A stretch of 64,000 bases of DNA, taken from Loigolactobacillus binensis (lineage in GTDB: Bacteria > Bacillota > Bacilli > Lactobacillales > Lactobacillaceae). The position numbers and the translations under genes were made by a program. Shown one piece after another: positions 26,916-45,062 of the stretch (the first letter of the stretch is position 1; each line of letters opens with the position of its first letter). The notes under the pieces were generated by a model. That model made no database searches. It saw only the letters and a list, made by a program, of their open reading frames with translations, and was not told the DNA's origin. The stretch lies in contig NZ_BJDN01000005.1 in the NCBI RefSeq assembly GCF_005405165.1, positions 1-64,000 of the forward strand. The letters are read 5' to 3'.

Positions 26916-27182
26916 CAAAAAGTCCCCGTAAGCTATGCTTACGAGGACGAATAATCGTGGTGCCACCTCAAGTTTATCTGGACCTTGCAGGCCAGACCTC
27001 AAGTTGCAAATTAAGTCTTTTAGTTTTCATTTCATGAATTAACTTGTAACAGTTTTTAACGCAGACCCTGCGTTGGCACCTACTGAGTTCAGCACCAAAG
27101 TTCATAGATGTGTGTTCGTCAGCAACGCTATACCCTCACAGCCGAATGGATACTCTCTCAAAAAACGTTAGCTCACTACTTT
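26916..27182 (-). promoter_or_regulatory. histidine T-box riboswitch
   Basis: The conserved T-box AGGTGGCACCACGATT lies at 26968-26953. The terminator stem (26937-26948 with 26922-26933) is followed by TTTTT. Further upstream AGTA (near 27180) and GAA (27117-27115) provide the specifier-loop turn, and GAA is followed directly by CAC, a histidine codon (27114-27112). Uncharged tRNA-His should stabilise the antiterminator and turn on hisZGDBHAFIEC. Confidence 0.92.
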
Positions 27183-27221
27183 TTCTAATCAAAACTTCAT
27201 TTTATTTTTAATGTTGTTCTC

Positions 27222-38030: not shown

Positions 38031-39884
38031 TCACACATTAACCGTGTTTTTAGCCTGAACATACTTAACCAATTCCAACGAGATCTCGTGATGCCGCAAA
38101 GGCGTATTGATGTGCACCCCATTGAAATCGGCACAGATCGCATCAATCGTTTCTTTGGCGATTTGGATGCCGACTTCACGTTCATTACCAGCAGCTTCTG
38201 CCTGTTGCATCCGCGCTAAAGTATCGTCGGCTAAACGAATACCTGGCACTTCATGATGTAGGAAGTTAGCGTTCCGGTAAGACAGTAACGGCATGACGCC
38301 AACAAAAACTGGCGTAGTGATGCCTTGTTCATCAAGGGCCGTGCGCAAAGCATGCACCTTTTCAATATCAAACACTGGCTGGGTGATAATAAAATCAGCC
38401 CCATAAGCCACCTTTTTAGCGATCATTTTACAAGCACGATCAACGCTGCGCACATTGGGGTTAAACGCACCACCAACGGCAAAGTTAGTTTTTTCCTGTA
38501 AATGGCGGCCAGTTGGCGAAATACCAGCATTAAATTTCTTGATCATTTGCATTAATTCAACGGAATGTAGATCGTAAACCGAAGTGGCACCCGGTAGATC
38601 GCCGACCTTGGCTGGATCACCGGTGATCACCAAAATATTGGAAATTCCCAGTGTGTGTAGGCCCATGATCTCCGCCTGTAAACCGATCAAGTTATGATCC
38701 CGCGTTGTTAAATGTACCAGCGGCGTGATCCCGTACTGATATTTTAATTGCGCCGCTAACGCCACATTGCTGATCGTCGGGTTAGCCAACGGTCCATCCG
38801 ACAAAGTAATGGCCCCGACACCGGCCTGATTTAATGCCTGTGCTCCCCGAAAAAACTTAGCCGTGGCAAATGTCTTTGGTGGATCCAGCTCGACTAACGC
38901 AACCTTTTCCTGGCGAACTTGTTGCAGAAAATCATGTTGCCGCGGATCGGCGGCCGCCGGTGGCGTTACAGCCGCCTGCGGGGTCACGATTTTAGTTGTG
39001 ATCGGTTGACGCGATTGCAAGCCAGCAACCAATCCTTTGATATGCGCTGGAGTGGTGCCACAACAACCACCGATCAAATGCGCTCCTTGCTGCTGGAAGA
39101 TCGCGCTATAATTTTCAAAATACTCCGCCGGACTATCGTAAACTGTTTTGCCATCCTGAACATCAGGTAACCCAGCGTTAGGATAAACGGCTAAAACCGA
39201 ATTCTCTGGTAAATTAACACTTTCAAAGGCACGACTCATGTTATATGGACCTAAGCGGCAGTTAGCACCAACAGCGTCGGCCCCTAAAGCGGCCAGCTCC
39301 TGTAAGGCAGTATTTAGATCCGTGCCATCTTGTAACACTCCCGGTTCATACATGGTAACGTTAGCAACCACCGGTAAATCCGTTAACTGGCGGACAATTT
39401 TAAATGCCCGCTTCAGCTCGTTAATATCATAGTAAGTTTCCAGCAAAATGCCGTCGATTGCTTGGGTATTCAATAAATATTCGGCTTGTTCTTGCACACC
39501 AGCATCAATTTCTTCAGCCGTCAAAGGTTCAATCTCTGTATCGGTGATCCCAGCGATTCCACCGATCGTGCCTAAAACGTAAACCGGATGTTCCGCCGCA
39601 ACTTGGGCTGTATGTGCTAAACTAACCGCTGCTTCATTGATAGCCTTCGTTTTATCGGCGAGGCCATAGCGATTTAACTTGATCCGATTAGCCGCATAAG
39701 TGTTGGTTTGGATCACATCGGCCCCCGCCGCAATATAGGCTTGATGAATCTTGAGAATATCGCCGCCATGGGTCAGATTCAACCCTTCAAATGCGGAATT
39801 CACGCCATATTGACTATAAAGCAACGTTCCCATGGCACCATCGGCGATCAAAACTTGCTGTTGTAAGGCTTCCTTGAAACTCAT
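38031..39884 (-). CDS. homocysteine S-methyltransferase / methylenetetrahydrofolate reductase fusion
   Basis: This bifunctional protein has 617 residues (YitJ-type). Residues 1-290 form the homocysteine methyltransferase domain with zinc cysteines Cys209 (GANCRLG) and Cys274-Cys275 (GGCCGTTP). Residues 320-610 form the MTHFR domain that makes 5-methyl-THF (FAVGGAFNPN, ADFIITQPVFD). It lies 23 bases after metE and so is in the T-box operon: the MTHFR domain supplies methyl-THF for MetE. Start ATG follows TGGAGGAGTCAA. Confidence 0.93.
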   Translation of the reverse strand: MSFKEALQQQVLIADGAMGTLLYSQYGVNSAFEGLNLTHGGDILKIHQAYIAAGADVIQTNTYAANRIKLNRYGLADKTKAINEAAVSLAHTAQVAAEHPVYVLGTIGGIAGITDTEIEPLTAEEIDAGVQEQAEYLLNTQAIDGILLETYYDINELKRAFKIVRQLTDLPVVANVTMYEPGVLQDGTDLNTALQELAALGADAVGANCRLGPYNMSRAFESVNLPENSVLAVYPNAGLPDVQDGKTVYDSPAEYFENYSAIFQQQGAHLIGGCCGTTPAHIKGLVAGLQSRQPITTKIVTPQAAVTPPAAADPRQHDFLQQVRQEKVALVELDPPKTFATAKFFRGAQALNQAGVGAITLSDGPLANPTISNVALAAQLKYQYGITPLVHLTTRDHNLIGLQAEIMGLHTLGISNILVITGDPAKVGDLPGATSVYDLHSVELMQMIKKFNAGISPTGRHLQEKTNFAVGGAFNPNVRSVDRACKMIAKKVAYGADFIITQPVFDIEKVHALRTALDEQGITTPVFVGVMPLLSYRNANFLHHEVPGIRLADDTLARMQQAEAAGNEREVGIQIAKETIDAICADFNGVHINTPLRHHEISLELVKYVQAKNTVNV

Positions 39885-39907: not shown

Positions 39908-42196
39908 CTATTCGGTAACGCCTAATTTAGCCCGCACATTATTCCGTGCTTGCACCATATTGCGCAAAGCCGCAATTGTTTCCGGTTCCTTGCGGGTCTT
40001 CAAACCACAATCAGGATTGATCCAGAATTGATGAATATCGATCACCTGCAAGGCACGATCAATATTTTGTTCGATTTCCGCAACTGAAGGCACCCGCGGA
40101 CTATGAATATCGTAAACACCTAAACCGATCTGCTTATCGTACTTCGTTTGTTCAAAGGCCTTAATACTCTCACCGTGTGAACGCGAAGATTCAATCGAGA
40201 TCACGTCGGCATCCAACGCGCTGATCGCTGGCAAAATATCTTCAAAATCGGAATAGCACATATGGGTATGAATTTGGGTCTCGTCCTTAACCCCTGTGGT
40301 AGTGATCTTGAATGCTTTGACGGCATTAGCTAAATAATCAGCGCGGTAACGCGGTTTCAAAGGTAAGCCTTCCCGTAAAGCAGGTTCGTCAACCTGAATG
40401 ATCTTGATTCCTGCATCTTCTAAGGCTTTAACTTCATGCCGCAACGCCAAACCAATTTGGTCAGCAACAAGATTTTTAGCCAAATCATCACGTACAAAAC
40501 TCCAGTTGATGATCGTAACCGCTGAGGTCAGCATCCCTTTGACTAACTTATTGGTTTGTTTTTGTGCAAAAACCGTATCGCGTACCGTAATTGGTTCAGT
40601 CCATTGCACATCCCCAAAGACAACTGGTGGTTTGACCCCACGGGAACCATAGCTTTGAACCCAGCCATTTTGCGTGGTTGTAAAGCCCTTTAGTTTCTGT
40701 CCAAAGTATTCCACCATATCAGTCCGTTCAAATTCGCCATGAACTAACACATCAATGTCAAGATCTTCTTGAATTTTCAACCAACGTTTAGCTTCTTGAT
40801 CCAAGAAAGCTTGATAATCTGCTGTTGATAAGTCACCTTTGCGCCAAGCTTTCCGGTGTGAACGGACTTCAGCCGATTGCGGAAAGCTACCGATCGTCGT
40901 TGTTGGTAATAACGGCAGGTTCAATACTTTCTGGGCTTTGACCCGTTCTGGATAAGCGGAATGGCGTTCAGTTGGTGCAGCAAGTACTGCCTTGACTGCT
41001 TTGGCCACCTCCGGATTGTTACGATGCTCAGAATGATTTAGCTGGTCTAAGGCCACTTGGCTCGCCGTTAATTCGGCAGTAACATCGTCACCGTTAGCAG
41101 CTTTGGTCAAAGTAACGATCTCCGCTAATTTTTGGTCCGCAAAAGCTAGCCCATTTTTGATCACTGGATCTAGTTTGTGTTCGTTAGCCGTGGTGATCGG
41201 CACGTGTAACAATGAGTTGGAAGGTTGCAACCATAATTGCGCGCTTGCTACCTTATCCCGCAACTGTGCGACTAATTCTTGCTTAGCACTTAGATCGCTG
41301 CGCCAAATATTACGCCCATCGACCACCCCAGCAGCTAAAACCTTAGTTTCAGGGAAGCCATATTTTTGTAATGCTTGTAAGTTTTCACCATGATCATGGA
41401 CAAAATCAAGTCCAAAACCTTCGGCTGGTAAATTAACGATCGCCGAATAGTCATCTAATGAAGCGAAATAAGTCTGAACCAAAACGTTAACTTTTGGCGC
41501 CGCTTCGTGTAAAACTTCCAAGGCATGCCGGTAAAGTGCAATTTCGGCCTTATCCGTAGTCACCAAAGTAGGTTCATCTAACTGGATCCATTTTGCCCCG
41601 GCAGCTGCTAATTCACGGAAAACTTGGACATAAAGTGGCAATAATTCGTCTAATAACTGACTTAAAAGTTCGCCGCTAACGTAAGCATCATTAACCTTAC
41701 TGAGCTTTAAGAAACTAACTGGACCTAAAATAACGGGCTTGCCGTCAATACCTAATTCGGCCTTAGCTTCGTTGTAATAAGTTAACCACCGATTATCCAA
41801 TAACTTGAATTGGACATGATCTAATTCTGGCACAATGTAATGGTAGTTAGTGTTGAACCACTTCGTCATTTCAGCGGCCACGGCCTCCTTAGTGCCCCGA
41901 GCAACACTGTAATAAGCGGCCAAGCTCAACTTTTCGTTGAATTGACCAAAACGCTGTGGGACAGCACCAAAAGCGACTGCTGTATCTAACACATGATCAT
42001 AATTTGAATAATCAGCCACTGGGATCAGATCAACGCCAGCCACTTGTTGCTTTTTCAAATTAGCTAAACGTAAAGCCTTGGTCTGCGCGGTAAACTCAGT
42101 TTCATCAATTTTATGACTCCATAAATGCTCTAGTAAAAACTTCCATTCCCGTTTTTCACCTAACCGTGGATAACCTTGATTACTACTTTTTACCAT
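39908..42196 (-). CDS. metE: cobalamin-independent methionine synthase
   Basis: This 762-residue MetE transfers the methyl group from methyl-THF-polyglutamate to homocysteine. The double-barrel family length is complete. Zinc ligands are His645 and Cys647 (HTHMCYSD), Glu669 and Cys730 (NPDCGLKTR). [11 protein letters not shown] near the start is the family N-terminus. It is the first gene of the Met T-box operon. AGGAGG lies 10 bases before the ATG. Confidence 0.96.
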
Positions 42197-42227: not shown

Positions 42228-42505
42228 CAAAAAAAGCGCCAGCCTTTGTATAACAAAGGACGACGCTTCTGCGTTCGCGGTACCACCTTATTTTTCCAAC
42301 ACCTCACAGTGTTGAACTCTACCAGTACGTTGCTTAGGCAACAGACTGTGGTGCGGTATCGGGCACAACCGTTGGTAACTAACCGAAGCTCGTTACCAAA
42401 CGCTCGGGGGTCATCTTCATCACTGATGCGCCATTCCTTTTCACTAACGGAACTCTCTGCAGGCTTTCTCAGCAATTACTTTCCTCGTCTTAACGTTCTC
42501 ATTCA
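42228..42505 (-). promoter_or_regulatory. methionine T-box riboswitch
   Basis: The conserved AGGTGGTACCGCG lies at 42288-42276. The terminator stem (42254-42267 with 42235-42248) is followed by seven Ts. AGTA on the 5' side and GAAGATG on the 3' side (42418-42412) give a plausible specifier loop with an AUG specifier. The distance between GAA and the triplet is one base longer than in the his leader, so the specifier is less certain than the class. Confidence 0.9.
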
Positions 42506-44408: not shown

Positions 44409-44440
44409 CAGTAAAGCGAGGCACCAGCACGCGATAGCGC

Positions 44441-44469
44441 TTGCAATTCTCTAGATAACTTGCTACACT
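44441..44469 (+). promoter_or_regulatory. promoter of SAM-riboswitch transcript
   Basis: TTGCAA (44441-44446) and TACACT (44464-44469) are separated by 17 bases. TGC directly precedes the -10 as in extended promoters. The transcript would start near 44476, just before the riboswitch. Confidence 0.7.
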
Positions 44470-44488: not shown

Positions 44489-44590
44489 TCTTTATCCAGA
44501 GTGCACGAGGGATCTGGCCCGTTGACCGCACAGCAACCTACCTTAGGCAAGGTGCTAATTCCAGCAGCAAGTAGCTGAGTAGATAAGGAG
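44489..44590 (+). promoter_or_regulatory. SAM-I (S-box) riboswitch
   Basis: The conserved S-box elements occur in order: TTATC-CAGAG, GAGGGATCTGGCCC, a TGA, AGCAACC, AAGGTGCTAATTCC-AGCAG and a closing GATAAGG that pairs with the first TTATC. A terminator at 44610-44645 completes the expression platform. SAM binding should favour termination, so the small ORFs downstream would be made when SAM is scarce. Confidence 0.93.
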
Positions 44591-44599
44591 CGATAACAT

Positions 44600-44662
44600 A
44601 TGATTCCAGCGCTTCTTTCAGCCAAGGCTCAAGGGGCGTTTTTATTTTCAACCAATAACTGA
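44600..44662 (+). CDS. possible 20-aa ORF across the riboswitch terminator
   Basis: ATG 44600 lies 9 bases after AAGGAG, which is itself at the 3' edge of the riboswitch P1 helix. The frame reads MIPALLSAKAQGAFLFSTNN and stops at 44662, 15 bases before the 49-aa gene. Its codons cover the terminator hairpin. It could be a leader peptide whose translation affects the terminator, or chance. No family is recognised. Confidence 0.35.
   Translation: MIPALLSAKAQGAFLFSTNN
44610..44645 (+). terminator. SAM-riboswitch expression-platform terminator
   Basis: CGCTTCTTTCAGCC and GGCTCAAGGGGCG pair with a small internal loop and two T-G wobbles around AA, then GTTTTTATTTTC follows. This is the regulated terminator of the S-box. 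Confidence 0.85.
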
Positions 44663-44677
44663 TTGGAGGAATTCATT

Positions 44678-44827
44678 ATGCGTTTAGGCGAAGAAAATTT
44701 CCGCGGTAAAATCGTGGGACGAACGGACAAGAAAATCAAAAATGATGTTGCGGCTTATTTGATCCAACAGGCGCTTAAAGCTGCGTTAGTTGCCCATGAT
44801 CAAACTAAAAAAGTGGGCGATGAATAA
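44678..44827 (+). CDS. small protein, 49 aa, under SAM-I riboswitch
   Basis: GGAGGAATTC is placed 7-8 bases before ATG 44678. The frame starts MRLGEENFRGKIVGRTDKKI and ends QTKKVGDE. It is basic in the first half, with a hydrophobic helix-like segment (AAYLIQQALKAALVAH) in the second, and no Cys. I do not recognise a family. It is the only gene between the riboswitch and a strong terminator, so the switch seems dedicated to it. A role in methionine/SAM balance is inferred from the control element alone. Confidence 0.75.
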   Translation: MRLGEENFRGKIVGRTDKKIKNDVAAYLIQQALKAALVAHDQTKKVGDE

Positions 44828-44829
44828 AA

Positions 44830-44873
44830 AAATAAGAAGCGTGGGCTGAATTTTCAGTCCGCGCTTCTTATTT
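44830..44873. terminator. bidirectional terminator after the 49-aa gene
   Basis: AATAAGAAGCG-GGGCTGA and TCAGTCCGCGCTTCTTATT form a long stem with one or two mismatches. It overlaps the stop codon of the convergent 64-aa gene. Confidence 0.85.
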
Positions 44874-45062
44874 GCCTTGAATGTACGCTTGAATTCGTTT
44901 GACGTCATCTTCTGGTGGTGTCATCTCCATCGCTTTTATAGCGTGAATATGTTCTACCGAAACGTGACTACTGAATGCCAATTCATTATCAGTTTGGTCA
45001 TGCCGTTTTTGGTACTGAATAATCTGTTCAGCCAACGCGCTTAATTCCCGTGATTCACTCAT
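44868..45062 (-). CDS. small HTH-like protein, 64 aa
   Basis: This short acidic protein has a segment ELAFSSHVSVEHIHAIKAME that fits the helix-turn-helix of XRE-type DNA-binding domains, preceded by a helix (ALAEQIIQYQKRHDQ). I recall similar short proteins in lactobacilli (LBP_cg2779-like), but cannot confirm. It may be a small regulator. The ATG follows AAGGATGGTG. Monocistronic. Confidence 0.75.
   Translation of the reverse strand: MSESRELSALAEQIIQYQKRHDQTDNELAFSSHVSVEHIHAIKAMEMTPPEDDVKRIQAYIQGK

Follow-up and report, generated by a model that had tools for sequence, protein, structure and literature searches.

The SAM-I leader and its expression platform

The window, a stretch of 64,000 nt of Loigolactobacillus binensis DNA, carries a SAM-I (S-box) riboswitch upstream of a 49-codon gene, here called ORF49, and methionine synthesis genes on the opposite strand. 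The features discussed below are the following.

38031..39884, minus strand: bifunctional homocysteine S-methyltransferase/methylenetetrahydrofolate reductase gene, downstream of metE (NF006396)
39908..42196, minus strand: metE, B12-independent methionine synthase (TIGR01371), the divergent linked gene in 7/7 genomes
42253..42500, minus strand: T-box leader of metE (RF00230, 94.3 bits), specifier AUG (Met) assigned by eye
44441..44469, plus strand: promoter-like site read from the sequence, TTGCAA (44441-44446), 17-nt spacer, TACACT (44464-44469)
44489..44589, plus strand: SAM-I (S-box) aptamer, RF00162 (cmscan, 71.9 bits, E 7.5e-15)
44585..44617, plus strand: antiterminator predicted by folding, AAGGAGCG (44585-44592, overlapping the P1 3' strand) paired with CGCTTCTT (44610-44617)
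44609..44643, plus strand: intrinsic riboswitch terminator, hairpin 44609-44639 plus T run (folding, shuffles)
44665..44669, plus strand: Shine-Dalgarno sequence GGAGG of ORF49, read from the sequence
44678..44827, plus strand: ORF49, 49-aa microprotein gene of a genus-specific family MRLxEENFR... (searches and codon statistics)
44830..44873, plus strand: unit-ending hairpin (-31.7 kcal/mol), likely bidirectional and shared with the convergent gene
44868..45062, minus strand: convergent gene of the 64-aa LBP_cg2779 family (NF040507), outside the unit and a neighbor in 7/7 genomes

Methionine enzymes and transporters are the textbook targets of SAM-I riboswitches. An earlier note on this DNA described the S-box consensus as nearly complete, and the covariance model agrees: cmscan with RF00162 covers the full model (positions 1-108) at 71.9 bits, above the gathering score of 44.4, and the genome scan found 44489-44589 as the sole SAM-I copy in L. 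binensis. In the alignment of the seven Loigolactobacillus aptamers, the P3 loop GCAACC...GGTGC is retained in 7/7, as is the P2-loop/J3-4 pseudoknot (CTGG with CCAG, assigned by eye); GCAACC and GGUGC of P3 are the conserved SAM-site loops. J1/2 keeps CCAG in all seven, with CCAGAG in six and CCAGCA in G005. We infer that SAM is the in vivo ligand of this aptamer, and we predict repression. Spermidine-sensing variants of SAM-I have been described in Gram-positive bacteria, with changes in J1/2 and the P3 internal loop (PMC10853860), and a different ligand is conceivable here too. We consider this very improbable: P3 is canonical throughout and J1/2 in all but G005, the score lies far above gathering, and the named genes nearby serve methionine and heme rather than polyamines, with ORF49 as the gene behind the aptamer. 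The combination of altered J1/2 and P3 loop with downstream polyamine genes was not found in the seven Loigolactobacillus leaders.

The same note credited the unit with a proper promoter and terminator. The terminator hairpin (44609-44639) reaches -14.1 kcal/mol (z -4.5, 0/200 shuffles as good) and recurs in 7/7 leaders. The promoter-like site scores under the 9-of-12 cutoff of the consensus scan, which did not list it; all 7/7 species have comparable hexamers at this position. The motif AGCGCTTGCA (44430-44446), which we take to resemble a cre (CcpA) site, overlaps the -35 region and is exact in 4/7 species; AAAGCGCTTTCA lies near the same site in G005.

The platform has the anatomy of an OFF switch. 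An antiterminator helix of 7 to 8 pairs is possible in 7/7 leaders when the platform stretch is folded alone. The P1 3' strand AAGGAGC (AAGGAAC in G005) can pair with the terminator 5' arm GCTTCTT (GTTCCTT in G005), and P1 and the antiterminator are therefore mutually exclusive, as are the antiterminator and the terminator. Three linked changes distinguish G005 (GAGC to GAAC, GCTTC to GTTCC, and GGGGCG to GGGACG in the terminator 3' arm); thus, one position has been altered along with both of its alternative partners. This single covariation event supports, without proving, the predicted switch. The antiterminator (-5.5 to -9.1 kcal/mol, in isolated-stretch folds only, versus -13.5 to -16.2 for the terminators) does not appear in the minimum-energy folds of the whole leaders, which give the terminator, and 44574-44650 as a whole is no more stable than its shuffles (z -0.64; 47/200). 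Absence of the antiterminator from minimum-energy folds is usual in kinetically driven switches. As a candidate leader peptide, a 20-codon frame with its own Shine-Dalgarno sequence within the platform (44600-44662) was rejected; its ATG is missing there in the other six species.

A second hairpin (44830-44873) follows the ORF49 stop codon at -31.7 kcal/mol (z -9.2, 0/200 shuffles as good). Hairpins also lie 3' of ORF49 in the other six species (without shuffle control), and across the seven they range from -17.4 to -32.6 kcal/mol in 6/7, with a weak one in G007 (-9.0). Because of this second strong hairpin, the unit looks monocistronic, with a single promoter, switch, gene, and terminator. 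ORF49, then the hairpin, is the order in 7/7 genomes (weak hairpin in G007), as expected from the earlier claim that the 49-aa frame is the only full gene under this control.

Judging from this anatomy and the one covariation, SAM binding would let P1 hold 44582-44589, which blocks the antiterminator, so that hairpin 44609-44639 forms and transcription ends. At low SAM, 44585-44592 is predicted to pair with 44610-44617, and the polymerase would read through ORF49 and stop at 44830-44873. The complete aptamer and the P1/antiterminator/terminator OFF logic are shared with the SAM-I (RF00162) riboswitches of Bacillales and Clostridia. Those precede methionine or SAM enzymes and transporters, whereas here the switch precedes one microprotein gene.

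ORF49, a microprotein gene under protein-level selection

ORF49 starts 87 to 91 nt 3' of the aptamer in 7/7 genomes, behind GGAGG in five species and GGATGG in two. Start, length (48 to 52 aa), and Shine-Dalgarno sequence are conserved across the family, in which identity to the L. binensis protein (MRLGEENF...VGDE) goes down to 44 to 47%. Sixteen residues are invariant among the seven proteins: eight within the first nine (MRL-EENFR), V24, L28, I29, A32, A36, L37, H40, and K45. With eight database proteins added, L28 and K45 are no longer invariant.

Among four close species, the variable columns are distributed over codon positions 1/2/3 as 12/5/38 (chi-square p 7e-8). The six pairwise comparisons contain 27 to 38 nucleotide changes and only 4 to 10 amino acid changes versus a neutral mean of 17.9 to 23.6; 0/5000 neutral simulations were as low in any of the six pairs. 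NG86 dN/dS, computable in 7/21 pairs, was 0.01 to 0.10 in five and 0.29 and 0.47 in two that involve the divergent G005. Since NG86 dS is saturated in the other 14/21 pairs, we base the case for selection on codon positions and simulation. ORF49 behaves as a protein-coding gene under strong protein-level selection. That it is a degenerating remnant or a frame arisen by chance, as its shortness and the lack of a functional name among its relatives might suggest, is hardly credible against the conserved start, length, and ribosome-binding site and the simulation result. Purifying selection and the good Shine-Dalgarno sequence indicate that ORF49 is probably translated, into a small protein that AlphaFold2 models, at low confidence (pLDDT 66.9, pTM 0.32), as two helices (residues 3-16 and 22-47).

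The protein has no place among known families, much as the earlier note had found. Searches returned no credible relative in Pfam (best CTD4, E 0.0052, in 3/7 members), PHROGs (best 0.2), or PDB sequences (best 1.1), and no match in NCBIfam. Among 5.8 billion proteins, a single-sequence query matched four and a profile eight, its own protein included in both; the named relatives are hypothetical proteins of Loigolactobacillus jiayinensis, L. coryniformis, L. zhaoyuanensis, and L. backii. We also considered ORF49 as a fragment of a longer protein. All eight, own protein included, have 48 to 52 aa in a search that admits just 0.55 to 1.75 times the query length, and six-frame searches of 350 Lactobacillaceae genomes gave seven short frames alone, although a longer relative may exist elsewhere. 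A second match in the contig scan, 19 residues in Dielma fastidiosa, was taken as chance. Among the matches listed in literature searches (titles and abstract starts; few subscription papers covered), none describes the SAM-I/ORF49 unit, and riboswitch combined with Loigolactobacillus returned 0 papers within that coverage.

Switch and gene travel together. Seven of eight Loigolactobacillus genomes, L. binensis included, hold one SAM-I and one ORF49 each, always joined, and in none of the seven does another SAM-linked gene follow the riboswitch. The eighth, G001, retains SAM-III and gave no match for SAM-I, ORF49, or MetE; thus, within the genus, every genome with the riboswitch also has the frame, which was not found in the one genome without a riboswitch match. 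Among 100 relatives, ORF49 matched seven genomes, its own included, all Loigolactobacillus, and a seven-row profile matched the same seven alone among the 350 Lactobacillaceae genomes, which were sampled evenly from a larger group.

The RNA itself might be the effector, either as a terminated leader acting in trans or as read-through antisense to the LBP_cg2779 gene, with ORF49 incidental. The LBP_cg2779 gene is convergent in 7/7 genomes, and SreA in Listeria reportedly provides a precedent for a SAM-riboswitch RNA as effector. Another comes from Clostridium acetobutylicum, where a SAM riboswitch runs antisense to the ubiG-mccB-mccA genes (PMC9943018). The strong protein-level selection on ORF49 makes this reading improbable, as does the hairpin that separates it from LBP_cg2779 in 7/7 genomes (strong in six, weak in G007 at -9.0 kcal/mol). 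SAM riboswitches also have no antisense tendency in a table of the same source, which counts 56 antisense versus 8,039 sense (PMC9943018).

Linkage to metE and the proposed role of ORF49

The earlier note assigned a T-box to the methionine genes of the window, correctly so for metE (RF00230, 42253-42500, minus strand). A second T-box leader lies at 26940-27201 on the minus strand (96.3 bits). ORF49, which has no assigned family, is linked to metE but forms a separate transcription unit. The aptamer lies 0.5 to 3.4 kb from the metE start, divergently, in 7/7 genomes, and the genes in between vary: G006 and G007 have a HAD-like gene there (by eye), G005 has just a 67-aa frame, and G000 and G002 to G004 have Cad-like, PnuC-like, and other genes. 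G001 has LBP_cg2779 and hemH side by side and no MetE match. ORF49 thus tracks metE in both linkage and presence, and LBP_cg2779 needs no metE. The co-absence of ORF49 and metE is a single loss, seen in G001 only, which one deletion could explain; the linkage could likewise be regional synteny, with LBP_cg2779 also a neighbor in 7/7. Linkage to hemH was dropped as an argument, since in G005 to G007 that gene lies far off or on a different contig.

The reading we favor, with a probability of about 0.5, is that a SAM-I OFF switch precedes a single conserved 49-codon gene whose protein, predicted to be made at low SAM, likely binds and tunes the MetE step or its supply. ORF49 would then be a SAM-starvation effector of methionine synthesis, acting most likely on MetE, as the linkage and co-occurrence with metE suggest. 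Because ORF49 is predicted to be made only when SAM is low, an activator or stabilizer of MetE is more likely than an inhibitor. In this way metE would receive signals from two sources, with uncharged tRNA-Met sensed by the T-box at the RNA level and SAM reported by the microprotein at the protein level. The observation in the earlier note is confirmed, and its interpretation as a SAM-controlled microprotein is supported, the function being our proposal.

The same SAM-off switch and a real microprotein could also serve another target, such as the uptake of methionine or homocysteine, MetK, or a step that uses SAM, and we see this as a possibility of some weight. The predicted signal is SAM starvation rather than methionine starvation, metK is likely under its own SAM-III, and the SAM-I small-protein genes read in other Lactobacillales do not adjoin metE; at L067 a metQ-like gene lies about 3.7 kb away, and at L068 a metY-like gene about 2.6 kb away (both named by eye). 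Within Loigolactobacillus, however, the stable linked methionine gene is metE (7/7), and ORF49 is absent from G001, which has SAM-III and no MetE match.

By analogy, the nearest working precedent for ORF49 acting on MetE is the cyanobacterial gifB gene. A type 1 glutamine riboswitch on gifB controls the small product IF17, which inactivates glutamine synthetase (PMC6316151). As described there, gifB resembles the ORF49 unit in placing a small protein under a metabolite riboswitch, and IF17 has been demonstrated to tune an enzyme of the same pathway (PMC6316151). The signs differ: glutamine activates gifB and IF17 inhibits its enzyme, whereas SAM would switch ORF49 off and MetE is its presumed target. 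Class I c-di-GMP riboswitches, reported before domain-less 58-aa proteins in C. difficile (PMC11477304), share the pairing of a riboswitch with a small uncharacterized protein and differ in both ligand and protein.

The riboswitch class at this locus is already known; what is new is that it is devoted to a conserved microprotein specific to the genus, and that such an arrangement recurs. A SAM-I riboswitch so devoted implies a previously unrecognized protein-level arm of SAM homeostasis, and the unit comes with what tests require: a ligand, a promoter, and a candidate target.

Small proteins behind other SAM-I-like RNAs in Lactobacillales

A published survey describes the loss of SAM riboswitches from nearly every Lactobacillus genome and the emergence or expansion of SMK boxes and methionine T-boxes (PMC3766115). 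Loigolactobacillus has all three: one SAM-III in each of 8/8 genomes, SAM-I, and the metE T-box in the L. binensis window. SAM-III was not found in any of the seven searched non-Loigolactobacillus Lactobacillaceae genomes with an RF00162 match. Among the 350 Lactobacillaceae genomes, RF00162 matched 73 at E 0.001 and 41 over the family cutoff; stricter filters, which lose weak matches, applied to the larger searches. The rarity of S-boxes asserted in the earlier note does not hold in Lactobacillaceae once reduced variants are counted (73/350), and 41/350 genomes have one over the cutoff. Matches of at least 58 bits occur only in the seven Loigolactobacillus genomes and, before metK, in three genomes of another genus.

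Of 82 RF00162 places in Lactobacillaceae, 58 were read: the 7 Loigolactobacillus units, 10 others, and a further 41. Behind the 10 stand metK (nine, by eye) and one small protein; behind the 41, metK (26, by eye), 11 small uncharacterized proteins, and four unclear cases (L088, L102, L106, L114). The 11 comprise a family of 96 to 114 aa (7/11, plus L030), a pair of 128 to 129 aa (L110/L111), and an 86-aa protein (L112/L113, the latter open over 54 aa), the pair and the 86-aa protein behind 94-nt SAM-I-like RNAs. All these aptamers score 34 to 41 bits, under the gathering score.

The 96-114 aa family sits behind a reduced SAM-I-like RNA of 88 to 91 nt (36 to 41 bits; L098-L101, L103, L108, L109, L030) and spans five Lactobacillaceae genera (g17, g19, g20, g23, g31). 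A protein search gave 134 members at E 0.001; where named among the best 120 of the 134, they are only hypothetical proteins, of Leuconostoc, Weissella, Fructobacillus, Liquorilactobacillus, Lactobacillus delbrueckii, and others. The query recovers 5/5 of the genomes that supplied its rows and found no member in the eight Loigolactobacillus genomes. As a SAM-I-like RNA with a small hypothetical protein, the arrangement (Weissella, Liquorilactobacillus, probably Leuconostoc, others) is shared with the ORF49 unit, but the aptamer is reduced and below gathering, and the protein has no BLAST match to ORF49. In the reduced aptamers, changes in the P2 loop are matched by changes in its partner (CTGG/CCAG, TACAG/CTGTA, TTACA/TGTAA, by eye), which suggests that these RNAs still fold as SAM-I.

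Outside Lactobacillaceae, SAM-I precedes a 73-aa protein in f7 and a 104-aa protein in f5 (two genomes each), and single genomes add proteins of 135 aa (G092) and 107 aa (G070). G092 has a third SAM-I (L070) without a clear gene behind it, and in f8 and G062 the genes behind SAM-I are, by eye, known methionine or transport genes. In G070 (L017), the P1 3' strand runs into AGGAGG right before the start codon of the 107-aa protein, which looks like a translational switch. Frames similar to the 73-aa and 104-aa types are broken by stops in G085 and G099, respectively (by eye). SAM-I aptamers at L018 (1501-1604) and L020 (1501-1599) are followed by a small frame that is stop-broken relative to the frames of relatives (by eye); there the small protein may be lost while the switch stays.

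In all, at least seven further small proteins of Lactobacillales, with no match to one another, lie behind SAM-I RNAs or their reduced variants. BLAST among 19 representatives separated eight groups, ORF49 included, with no between-group match at E 0.01, although distant kinship may exist at the sequence level. Besides ORF49, 13 such proteins searched against Pfam and nine against NCBIfam gave none at the curated cutoffs. The recurrence of unmatched small proteins behind SAM-I-like RNAs in Lactobacillales means that riboswitches can point the way to functional microproteins. More speculatively, Lactobacillales may have repeatedly recruited SAM-I for small lineage-specific proteins (at least eight unmatched groups, 48 to 135 residues), forming an unrecognized tier of SAM-starvation effectors that adjust methionine enzymes at the protein level after loss of the classical S-box regulon, with ORF49 as the MetE effector of Loigolactobacillus; we hold this doubtful but worth stating.

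In several Lactobacillaceae genera, metK (by eye) stands behind a shortened SAM-I variant (84 to 127 nt; 39 to 60 bits; L022-L029, L077-L087, L089-L097), which typically has CACCAAC...GGTGGT instead of CAGCAAC...GGTGCT.
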